A stretch of 23,086 nucleotides of DNA from a virus. Every line of letters starts with the position of its first letter. Positions within the stretch are counted from its first letter, which is position 1. The stretch is from IMG/VR virus record IMGVR_UViG_3300017743_000136, positions 1 to 23,086 of that record; one strand, written 5' to 3'. The translations under genes and the position numbers were made by a program. Of this stretch, positions 1,075 to 3,925 are shown piece after piece. The notes under the pieces were generated by a model, which was not told the DNA's origin, made no database searches, and saw nothing but the letters and a program-made list of their open reading frames with translations.

Positions 1075-1192
1075 TTTTTCTTTTTATCTTGTTAGCTAGC
1101 TCAATAATTGGGCCAGTGGAGATACTACTATCAGTCCGTTTGGATTCTTGCAAGAAAAACTTTAAACTTTCTTCAAGGTTGTTTTGAGAAGG

Positions 1193-1219
1193 CTTGGTGT
1201 GACTTGGTGAGTCTTGGTG
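1193..1219. repeat. Three CTTGGTG direct repeats at 10-bp spacing
   Basis: CTTGGTG (CACCAAG on the minus strand) occurs at 1193-1199, 1203-1209 and 1213-1219, each separated by three bases, so the period is exactly one helical turn. Such phasing suggests a protein-binding array on one face of the DNA. No gene covers it convincingly. Confidence 0.75.
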
Positions 1220-1231
1220 CGTGTGAAGAGA

Positions 1232-1249
1232 AATCGCTAAGGAATCGCT
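1232..1249. repeat. AATCGCT direct repeat pair
   Basis: AATCGCT occurs at 1232-1238 and 1243-1249, followed by AAG and GAG respectively. A related TTCGCTGAGCC lies at 1428-1438. The copies are short and could be chance, but they sit in the same gene-free stretch as the CTTGGTG array. Confidence 0.4.
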
Positions 1250-1479
1250 GAGCTTTCAAAACGTAAAAACACCCACAAACACTCACACGCACCCATGCGA
1301 CCGGCTTAGCGCTGGCCAATCGATCACTTGTTGCTTCCCATTGATGCCCCCAGGCCCCCCTTGATCTCTTTGCGCTCCTTCGAGCTCGCCCGCCTGGCGT
1401 GAAGACGTCGCCAAGTTTGCGCTTCGATTCGCTGAGCCTGCGACGAGGCCCTACGGGGTGATGCGGCAAACTCTCCGTA

Positions 1480-1508
1480 TATATAACCCTCTCAGACTTT
1501 TTTGCCAA
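1480..1508 (-). promoter_or_regulatory. Sigma70-type promoter for the leftward (possibly early) operon
   Basis: Read on the minus strand, TTGGCA (1508-1503, five of six to TTGACA) is followed 17 bases later by TATATA (1485-1480, four of six to TATAAT). Transcription would start near 1473 and run into the gene-free leader and the four small genes at 1074-1. The -35 element touches the end of the intrinsic terminator at 1506-1546. Late readthrough would therefore be stopped just where host RNA polymerase could start. In T7, host-RNAP promoters drive early genes from the left genome end. The alternative is a phage-polymerase promoter, since TATACGGAGA resembles the core at 1976-1985. Confidence 0.5.
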
Positions 1509-1546
1509 AAATAGAACAGGGCCCCTAGCGATTACTAAGAGCCCTG
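1506..1546 (-). terminator. Rho-independent terminator after the 78-residue ORF
   Basis: On the minus strand CAGGGCTC (1546-1539) pairs with GGGCCCTG (1524-1517), an eight-base-pair stem with one G-T pair, followed by TTCTATTTTT. On the plus strand the same pair is a C-A mismatch and there is no T tract, so the minus orientation is favoured. It closes the packaging end of the late region. Confidence 0.75.
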
Positions 1547-1588
1547 CCTAATGAACAACACAATGCAAATATAGAGCATAAGGTTAAC

Positions 1589-1825
1589 TCAAGGCTTCTC
1601 TTCGTCAGACGATGAGGGTGGCCCGAAGTCAATCTCGATGCCATCTATATAGGAATTGAAAGATTCGTCAACAATATTTAATCCGACATTGAGCAGTCCT
1701 TTAGCTGCGAATGAATTGTCATAGATGACTCTGCACTGGTGCCGGGTGTCAGCCACAACAACCACATAGTTCTCGTAATGTTCGCCTAGGGTGGCTTTGA
1801 GTGAGTCGAGAGGGTCGTCAGGCAT
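1589..1825 (-). CDS. Small hypothetical protein downstream of terminase, 78 residues
   Basis: This acidic protein begins MPDDPLDSLKATLGEHY, has a central hydrophobic strand (NYVVVVADT) and ends in a Ser/Asp/Glu tail (PPSSSDEEKP). It lies alone between the T7-type promoter core at 1976-1985 and the intrinsic terminator at 1506-1546, so it may have its own transcription unit. The 10-bp repeat array occupies its immediate upstream leader, and no Shine-Dalgarno sequence is present. By position it corresponds to T7 gene 19.5, the last gene after the terminase, although I see no sequence similarity I can vouch for. The function is unknown. Confidence 0.65.
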   Translation of the reverse strand: MPDDPLDSLKATLGEHYENYVVVVADTRHQCRVIYDNSFAAKGLLNVGLNIVDESFNSYIDGIEIDFGPPSSSDEEKP

Positions 1826-1874
1826 ACTTAAAGATACTTAGAGTTACTTAAAGTATCTTTAAGATATCTAAGAG
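1825..1874. repeat. Five-unit degenerate 10-bp repeat array (TACTTAAAGA type)
   Basis: Consecutive 10-base units are TACTTAAAGA, TACTTAGAGT, TACTTAAAGT, ATCTTTAAGA and TATCTAAGAG. The array lies directly before the ATG of the 78-residue ORF, downstream of the large terminase gene. T7 and its relatives carry short repeats of the CCTAAAG type beside their terminal repeats, and this array has similar wording and position. That makes a role in concatemer processing or packaging plausible. Control of the small ORF is the alternative. Confidence 0.7.
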
Positions 1875-1913
1875 ATGTAGTTGTAAATGAATAAAATTAA
1901 AGAATATAGTGGT

Positions 1914-1933
1914 CTCTTAGTCATCTCTAAGAG
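1914..1933. repeat. Inverted repeat CTCTTAG / CTAAGAG
   Basis: CTCTTAG (1914-1920) and CTAAGAG (1927-1933) form a seven-base inverted repeat with a six-base spacer. The half-site CTAAGAG recurs in the last unit of the array at 1825-1874 (CTAAGAG at 1868-1874), so both may be bound by the same protein. Confidence 0.5.
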
Positions 1934-1975
1934 TACTTATAGAGAGAAAACACCCCTTGTCAATAGTCTTTTTAT

Positions 1976-1998
1976 TCTCCCTATACGATCATTGATAT
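1976..1998 (-). promoter_or_regulatory. T7-type single-subunit RNA polymerase promoter candidate
   Basis: On the minus strand the sequence ends in GTATAGGGAGAAT, with +1 expected at the first G (1981). The ten bases TATAGGGAGA are identical to the -4 to +6 part of the T7 consensus. The upstream recognition part does not match T7, as expected for a polymerase of different specificity. It lies just after the large terminase gene, where T7 has phiOR, and would transcribe the 78-residue ORF after a leader of about 155 bases containing the repeat array. The phage's polymerase gene is not in this window. Confidence 0.5.
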
Positions 1999-2028
1999 AA
2001 GACATTTATAATGAATCATTTACAACAA

Positions 2029-3708
2029 CTACCAAGTGAGGATGTTTTCACTTCCTTTTCGTGTTTTATAATATGCCTCTGCATACTTTTCTAGCTCCAT
2101 TTTAAGATCGTCCTCCTTTCGCTCTAGGATGCGTTCTGACGCGTCTTGGGCCATTTGGGCGGCCCAGTAGCCAACCGCCATCGAAAGCGCGTCTAAGCGG
2201 TCGTCATGCGTCACAGCGCCCCTGTCACGAGTTATACGAGTCATCTGGTAGATTAACTGGTATTTCAGTGAGTGGTCCTTAGGATAGCTCTGAGTCGTCT
2301 CGTAGTCGTTCTGGATGACCTTCGGGTCAACCACAAGCTTATGGCCTGTCATCACGGGCTCGAGGGTATCAATGATCCTTCGTTCTTTCTGTGTGCTGTG
2401 CCTCACTTCCTCAATGGTGCACGGATGGACCTTGCGAAGTATTGGTTTTAGTAGTTCAACAAACATACCATCCCCGAAGTTACTCTCTACAACGATCTCA
2501 TTGACCTTGTGTTCTTTTGCGGTCATCGAAAGGAACTTAAGGGTTTCCTCAGAGTAGCCTCCTTGGACCCCTCCAGCCGCCGTGACATAAAGGAAACCAT
2601 TAAGCATCTTAACGACTGCGTAGCCTGTCTCGTCCTTGCCTCGTCCTGACGGGTCGATTGACATGACGCTCCCGGTATACTTAACGTGTTCGCCAAGCAC
2701 CTTCATCGGGCGATAGAATCTGTCTCCGGTCATCCCTACGTTAGGTATTGATCCGTCCCACTCGAGCTCTGGGTCCCGAGCCCACACTAGGCGTTCGGGG
2801 GCCAGTTCGTTGTCAAGGGACATCACGATAAGGTCCGCAAGCTTCAGCGGATACTTTTCGACGTCACTAAGGTTTGAGTCCAGCATAAATTGAAGAGCAT
2901 ACCCGGCAGAGCCGTAGGATACTTTACGTTCGGCAAGGTCTACGTCAGAGAACCGGAGTGGCTCTGTGGACCTTCCTTTTTGTTCTATATCAACACAACA
3001 ATCAGCGATGTGCCCATCGTAACGCTTAGCGCTTTGGTCTGGGGTGACATACTGAGCAGGCCAGATGCGGGTCTGGTAGCCACGCTCGGTTAGCTGTCGG
3101 TATATTGTGTCTTCGCATTGTGGCGTCCCCAAGAAGATAACCTTTGAGTCATCAAGTGGCTTAATGATCGCATCGAACTCTTTGACTTGTTCTCCGAGCT
3201 TGTCTCGCATCATTTGGGTTGCCGAGTTGTTTGGCACCTCGACGTCATCAGCAACAATGATGTCTGCACGAGACCCAGTCAGTTGAGATGTAATACCCAG
3301 GGACTTGACGGAGGGCGCGTGGGCCGCTGGGGCCGGACCGACGTCGAATGAGATCTTACTGAATCGTTGTTTGTCTTGGGGGATGAGGTGCTTAAGTAGG
3401 GGCATCTCATGGATAAGCCTAAGAGTAAAAGTTGAGAAGTCATCTGCTCGAGTTTTTGAAGCAGAGACAACAAGTATATTCTTTGAGGGATCGAGGAGCA
3501 ACTGGTGGACAACATAAGCAGAGCAAATCCAGCTTTTTCCAACGCCTCGAAAGCCTTGAATAACTGCTCGCTTGTCTCCGTGCTGCATGTAATCCGCGAT
3601 CTCATATTGAATAGTTGTGGGGGCAGGTAGGTTTAGTTGCTTCCAGACAAGGTAAAGGAAGTTACGGAAGTCTTTAAGCTGTGATGCTGTTTGTTTTATA
3701 TCAGCCAT
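2029..3708 (-). CDS. terL: Terminase large subunit (T7 gp19-like)
   Basis: This is the ATPase-nuclease motor that pumps concatemeric DNA through the portal into the prohead and cuts it. The 559 residues are close to T7 gp19 (586). The N-terminal ATPase has a Walker A at residues 52-59 (GFRGVGKS) and a Walker B at about 150-157 (IIVADDVE) with D154, D155 and E157, followed by IFLGTPQ at about 191-197 as a coupling-motif candidate. The C-terminal RNase H-like nuclease shows D352 in SIDPSGRGKDE, E408 in VVESN and D502/D503 in HDDRLDAL. The start overlaps the HNH gene by eight bases. No Shine-Dalgarno sequence is evident, so coupling to the upstream gene is likely. Everything needed for activity appears intact. 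Confidence 0.95.
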   Translation of the reverse strand: MADIKQTASQLKDFRNFLYLVWKQLNLPAPTTIQYEIADYMQHGDKRAVIQGFRGVGKSWICSAYVVHQLLLDPSKNILVVSASKTRADDFSTFTLRLIHEMPLLKHLIPQDKQRFSKISFDVGPAPAAHAPSVKSLGITSQLTGSRADIIVADDVEVPNNSATQMMRDKLGEQVKEFDAIIKPLDDSKVIFLGTPQCEDTIYRQLTERGYQTRIWPAQYVTPDQSAKRYDGHIADCCVDIEQKGRSTEPLRFSDVDLAERKVSYGSAGYALQFMLDSNLSDVEKYPLKLADLIVMSLDNELAPERLVWARDPELEWDGSIPNVGMTGDRFYRPMKVLGEHVKYTGSVMSIDPSGRGKDETGYAVVKMLNGFLYVTAAGGVQGGYSEETLKFLSMTAKEHKVNEIVVESNFGDGMFVELLKPILRKVHPCTIEEVRHSTQKERRIIDTLEPVMTGHKLVVDPKVIQNDYETTQSYPKDHSLKYQLIYQMTRITRDRGAVTHDDRLDALSMAVGYWAAQMAQDASERILERKEDDLKMELEKYAEAYYKTRKGSENILTW

Positions 3709-3925
3709 TTCTTGAGCGATTACGCCTTTTTGATTGAATCCTTAGGTTTGCTCGTGTGTTGTTGTTGGGGTTCCTGTCCTTATGATCAACGTCCTTCCCC
3801 TCCAAAGTCTTCCTACCTACCTTTTTAATCATCAACCTTCGTGCCGCGTTGCGTCCAGCCCTGCGTTTCTTCTGGGTCGGCTTAGCGTGGTAGGTGTTGT
3901 ATTCGTTCTTGTAATTTCTAGCCAT
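3701..3925 (-). CDS. Small HNH-type nuclease domain protein
   Basis: This very basic 74-residue protein has the HNH core DVDHKDRNPNNNTRANLR at residues 45-62. It matches the DHxxxNxxNNxxxNLR pattern of HNH endonucleases associated with phage genomes (D47-H48, N55/N56, N60). The N-terminal 45 residues are rich in Lys and Arg and probably contact DNA. It is shorter than usual homing endonucleases and no extra DNA-binding module is visible. It lies between the terminase subunits, overlapping both by eight bases. HNH proteins beside terminases are known in other phages to assist DNA cleavage in packaging. Here that role is an inference; a free-standing mobile nuclease is the alternative. Confidence 0.75.
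   Translation of the reverse strand: MARNYKNEYNTYHAKPTQKKRRAGRNAARRLMIKKVGRKTLEGKDVDHKDRNPNNNTRANLRIQSKRRNRSRNG

Follow-up and report, generated by a model that had tools for sequence, protein, structure and literature searches.

The region that follows the terminase large-subunit gene of an uncultured marine phage is, in our reading (probability about 0.87), the concatemer junction of a T7-type phage: the place at which the genome would be cut to give packaged ends, with the direct terminal repeat (TR) appearing as a single collapsed copy. A two-part cut signal, comprising a conserved box and a C-run at the correct spacing, occurred once in the window (the whole 23,086-bp stretch analysed, a linear virus record), compared with 0.008 occurrences expected, and short tandem repeats flank both sides of the predicted TR, as SRR and SRL, the short repeat regions of T7, do in that phage. 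A preliminary description of this DNA had proposed a genome end or a late/early junction here, and our analysis supports that proposal. By homology with T7, genomes in infected cells would be joined head to tail via the TR. The phage terminase would make the left cut on the terminase-gene side, at about 1484/1483, marked by AAAAAAGTCTGAGAGGGTTA and by CCCCGTAGGG 26 nt inside, and the right cut would fall on the early-gene side near 1265/1264, between GGTGTTTTT and ACG, marked by a G/T block. Each packaged molecule would then carry the same sequence of about 219 bp at both ends, and the arrays would lie outside the TR, in the places of SRR and SRL.

The late genes of this T7-like phage (portal, scaffold, capsid, tail tube, internal virion proteins and the small and large terminase subunits) lie on the minus strand. 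The junction begins at the stop codon of the T7-type terminase large-subunit (TerL) gene (2029 to 3708, minus strand; PHROG 38, E 8.7e-114; T7 RNaseH-like domain PF22530, E 2.8e-42), the arrangement found in T7-type genomes with direct terminal repeats. The early region, with genes for an 83-aa, a 66-aa and a DUF7178 protein, occupies positions 1 to 1074 on the minus strand; no credible gene was found in 1075-1588, there was no Rfam match and no tRNAs were found. A small HNH-endonuclease-like protein (PF13392) is encoded at 3701-3925 (minus strand), between the terminase small- and large-subunit genes. Searches with megablast and blastn detected no DNA-level relative of the window among annotated phages, and the closest annotated TerL was that of Ayaqvirus AP013544 (MedDCM-OCT-S45-C18), at 70.6% identity. 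Comparisons were made with the best 80 of 223 IMG/VR stretches encoding a relative (L-numbers below). Nine long relatives encode a T7-type RNA polymerase on the TerL strand, downstream of that gene, so that the right and left genome ends meet at the junction. The first early gene past the junction (within 1-1074 in the window) differs among L004, L005, L007, L012 and L014, whose terminases are >97% identical, which suggests mosaic exchange beside the genome end.

The left junctions of known repeats, SP6 excepted, were found to consist of an A-rich stretch, TNTGA[AG], six bases and then the cut. In T7, T3, P-SSP7, Syn5 and HTVC019P the shared pattern is AAAAATCTGAG plus about 6 nt before the cut, and about 25 nt after it CCCC[AG]TAGGG. 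A left-cut profile was built from these five known junctions, and in a leave-one-out test the true cut was the best genome-wide match in four of five. When both strands of the window were scanned, the best match fell at 1484/1483 on the late-gene strand, scoring 16.7 bits compared with 10.4 for the runner-up (P = 0.0004 in the post-terminase region; P = 0.015 across the whole window). The predicted left cut box of the window is TTTTTGGCAAAAAAGTCTGAGAGGGTTA (1484-1511, minus strand), which matches the boxes of T7, T3, P-SSP7, Syn5, HTVC019P, gh-1 and K1F. Since 7 nt rather than 6 separate TCTGAG from TA in the window, the predicted cut may be off by about 2 bases. The second element, CCCCGTAGGG (1449-1458, minus strand), starts 26 nt inside the predicted repeat, within the span of +24 to +30 at which all the known repeats examined begin a C-run, usually one followed by [AG]TAG.

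In T7 and P-SSP7 the combined pattern hit nothing but the true end, and gh-1 and K1F, which were fetched once the rule had been fixed, agree with it in both parts. The cultured phages CRP-125 and HTVC119P, whose records have no deposited repeat, also carry the box, with cuts predicted after record positions 37451 and 37574, respectively. In phiKMV and SP6 the C-run is kept and the box has diverged; neither SP6 nor RHEph01 gave a match to the left-cut box, and HTVC011P and HTVC120P were not recovered as top matches of the profile, though a box can be read by eye. Among the relatives, the best profile match lay after the terminase in 51 of 69. Distant relatives (L049-L081) carry near-perfect boxes, for example AATTTGGCATAAAAATCTGAAGGGGTA before the cut and TACG after it, 0.8-1.9 kb past the terminase, and box scores in the sister clade (L021-L044) were weak, at 3.6-12 bits.

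The right edge of the TR was placed by conservation. A profile of 29 aligned sequences showed conserved islands at both predicted TR edges. Past the box, the next decamer with 100% conservation is GGTGTTTTTA at 1273-1264, which ends a G/T-rich block (1264-1297, minus strand) forming the probable right cut zone, and conservation drops sharply just beyond it, at the start of array 2. From the conserved decamer and the collapse of conservation that follows, together with the left box, we predict a TR at 1483-1265 (minus strand) of about 219 bp; the decamer probably marks its right edge, which we place tentatively at about 1283-1257. Known direct terminal repeats, in the T7, T3, SP6, P-SSP7, Syn5 and HTVC019P records, are exact and span 160-237 bp. 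T7 and HTVC019P have similar G/T-rich right ends; the conserved GGTGTTTTTACG block of the window stands where T7, T3 and Syn5 have ATCTGTT, of which the window has no clear copy. Pattern scans of the fetched contigs revealed none with two TR copies. Contig ends of relatives fell within 2.5 kb past the terminase in 25 of 39 contigs of at least 8 kb, compared with 0 upstream; this clustering was dropped as proof of a genome end, since the ends are not stacked at one base and strain variation could explain it. Folding of the TR with array 2 as single-stranded DNA was no better than that of shuffles. An 11-bp perfect inverted repeat, GGTGCGTGTGA at 1283-1293 and TCACACGCACC at 1216-1226, lies across the predicted right TR edge and could fold into a hairpin; it is not kept in L007.

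Several parts that had been proposed to accompany the junction were recovered. The T7-type promoter core beyond the terminase, ATCGTATAGGGAGA (1989-1976, minus strand), is conserved in the close clade; even with up to 3 mismatches allowed, the window has no other match. It occupies the place of T7 phiOR, which sits 98 bp past gene 19. In L042, about 120 bp containing the T7-type promoter are tandemly duplicated, about 80-290 bp past TerL. The small ORF encodes 78 aa with no family match (1589-1825, minus strand, between array 1 and the terminator) and has 20 relatives by sequence. It differs from its counterpart in L004 by 8 synonymous and 0 nonsynonymous codons, and it is missing in the close relatives L008, L011 and L017-L020, which keep the promoters and cut box; judged from these sequences, it is a real but optional gene carried as a cassette. 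The terminator, a hairpin with T-run of the intrinsic type (1548-1515, minus strand), lies directly before the cut box (-25 kcal/mol, z -5.1), and in 10 sequences 8 cells had changed on both sides of the hairpin, compared with 2.6 after shuffling. A perfect 12-bp palindrome, TTCTTGCAAGAA, at 1145-1156 between array 2 and the first early gene, is kept in most close relatives and is possibly an operator.

The preliminary description had also called a sigma70-type promoter, TTGGCA-17-TATATA, at about 1507-1479 on the minus strand. This element coincides with the cut box, and in relatives its TTGGCA and TATATA vary freely whereas AAAA..TCTGA and the C-run stay. Reading the element as the conserved cut box places the TR between the two arrays. 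The better sigma70-type candidate is TTGACA-16-TATAAG at 1963-1936 (minus strand), before array 1, whose TTGACA is kept in relatives, including those without the small ORF. If the box were nevertheless a sigma70 promoter, the whole region could be no more than a spacer between late and early genes that serves regulation through host and phage promoters, a terminator and repeats resembling operators, and the packaging site would lie elsewhere. The promoter-like appearance of TTGGCA-17-TATATA fits such a spacer, as does the presence of the T7-type promoter, the TTGACA-16-TATAAG promoter and a covarying terminator. However, the same motif is the genome end in P-SSP7, T7, T3 and Syn5, the box of divergent relatives retains AAAAATCTGAAGGGGTA, which is not a -10 element, and we know of no promoter role for a C-run at fixed spacing. 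We consider this explanation very improbable.

Both arrays exceed chance. Array 1 (1824-1874, minus strand; CT[CT]TAAGTA-type units) lies on the terminase side of the TR, and array 2 (1193-1219, minus strand; CACCAAG units, read as CTTGGTG three times on the plus strand) on the early-gene side. Tandem Repeats Finder (TRF) reported array 1 at 1824-1866 with period 10, 4.3 copies, 79% matches and a score of 49, the maximum in the window, and array 2 with period 10, 2.7 copies and a score of 40; it also reported a third period-10 stretch, AAACACCCAC, at 1267-1295. First-order Markov shuffling of 1180-2010 (300 replicates) never gave a score of 49 or two period-10 arrays scoring at least 37, and gave one such array in 0.7% of cases; coding controls showed no lag-10 excess. 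The five-unit repeat described at 1825-1874 is therefore a genuine period-10 array but not an exact one: on the plus strand its units are TACTTAAAGA, TACTTAGAGT, TACTTAAAGT, ATCTTTAAGA and TATCTAAGAG, three good and two loose. The second array was as described, in DNA free of credible genes.

Whole 10-bp units of array 1 have been gained or lost between near-identical relatives. Array 2 ranges from zero to about seven units among relatives, is absent from the close relatives L013-L015 and from L069, and shows less conservation than any other part of the junction, with array units turning over fastest in the 29 sequences. The period is 10 in the clade of the window, 11 in the sister clade, 12 in HTVC019P and L071, and 12-13 in T7. 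Many relatives, and likewise HTVC019P, have arrays at +220 to +290 from the left cut. Arrays adjoin the repeat in T7 and HTVC019P also. Allowing 1 mismatch, CCTAAAG occurred once on the array 1 side and 0 times on the array 2 side, compared with 7 and 13 in T7; the arrays are accordingly SRR- and SRL-like by position only, and the earlier remark that their units differ, unlike those of T7, was correct.

What the arrays do is less secure than the genome end itself. Ordered binding by terminase or another packaging factor, which had been proposed from exact helical phasing, would agree with arrays that flank the TR in the clade of the window and in T7, and with the period of 10 in the window. 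Periods that vary between 10 and 13 bp speak against a scaffold of fixed helical phase, as do the rapid turnover of units and the relatives that have no array 2, and such binding is improbable. A serious rival to any auxiliary role is neutral turnover, in which slippage or recombination at a site of end formation and copying would leave the arrays as by-products. Changes of whole units between near-identical phages, rapid turnover and the relatives without arrays would follow naturally from it; their recurrence, beside the repeat in T7 as well as at a similar distance in many relatives and HTVC019P, suggests instead selection or a site-fixed mechanism. We regard neutral turnover as possible, with the odds somewhat against it. 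Our preferred reading is that the arrays may be auxiliary, lineage-specific repeats which aid the processing or joining of concatemers and whose length changes in both directions through slippage, rather than a helically phased terminase scaffold; we hold it tentatively, with the odds again somewhat against it.

Taken together with the junction model, these comparisons lead us to a broader suggestion, which we hold tentatively, at a little under even odds: that a two-part signal, TTTTGG..AAAAATCTGAGnGGGTA and, about 25 nt past the cut, CCCC[AG]TAGGG, is common to T7, T3, gh-1, K1F, cyanophages, pelagiphages and this uncultured marine group, so that the physical ends of many T7-like genomes could be read from sequence alone, the flanking arrays being fast-evolving, lineage-specific partners in concatemer processing. 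We found no published account of the shared cut box in a search that lay mostly outside the subscription literature, and the signal is possibly a new and useful comparative rule. Assemblies that look circular conceal where T7-like phage genomes really end, P-SSP7 being one example (PMC3350473); with a cut signal recognisable in sequence, the ends of many phages from marine metagenomes would be fixed. Completion of the left repeat in T7-type phages is still not fully understood (PMC3350473), and comparing junctions whose arrays differ offers direct material for testing which parts matter.

T7 and T3 share with the window the order of terminase, phage promoter, small ORF, short repeats, cut box, C-run, repeat, short repeats and early genes, with a box of AAAAATCTGA plus about 6 nt before the cut and CCCCC.TAGGG. 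In the window, unlike T7 and T3, a terminator immediately precedes the cut, and T7 has CCTAAAG-type units of period 12-13 on both sides whereas those of the window differ between sides. The ends of P-SSP7 were sequenced experimentally and define a 206-bp repeat (PMC3350473); its left box and C-run are near-identical (TTTTGGCAGAAATGTCTGAGGTCATA before the cut, TATACG after it, and then CCCCCGTAGGG), but TRF finds no short arrays beside the repeat. The pelagiphages HTVC019P and HTVC022P have the box and C-run past the last gene, a G/T-rich right end and a CACCACCACAAG-type array after the repeat; they differ in having no array on the terminase side and, in HTVC019P, a period of 12 and a repeat given in its record as 162 bp. 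Ayaqvirus AP013544 has the same cut box and C-run past the terminase, but its TerL is separated from the junction by an amidase gene and only a weak array is present. The junction described here is very probably a further case of the known T7-type genome end, in an uncultured marine phage group.
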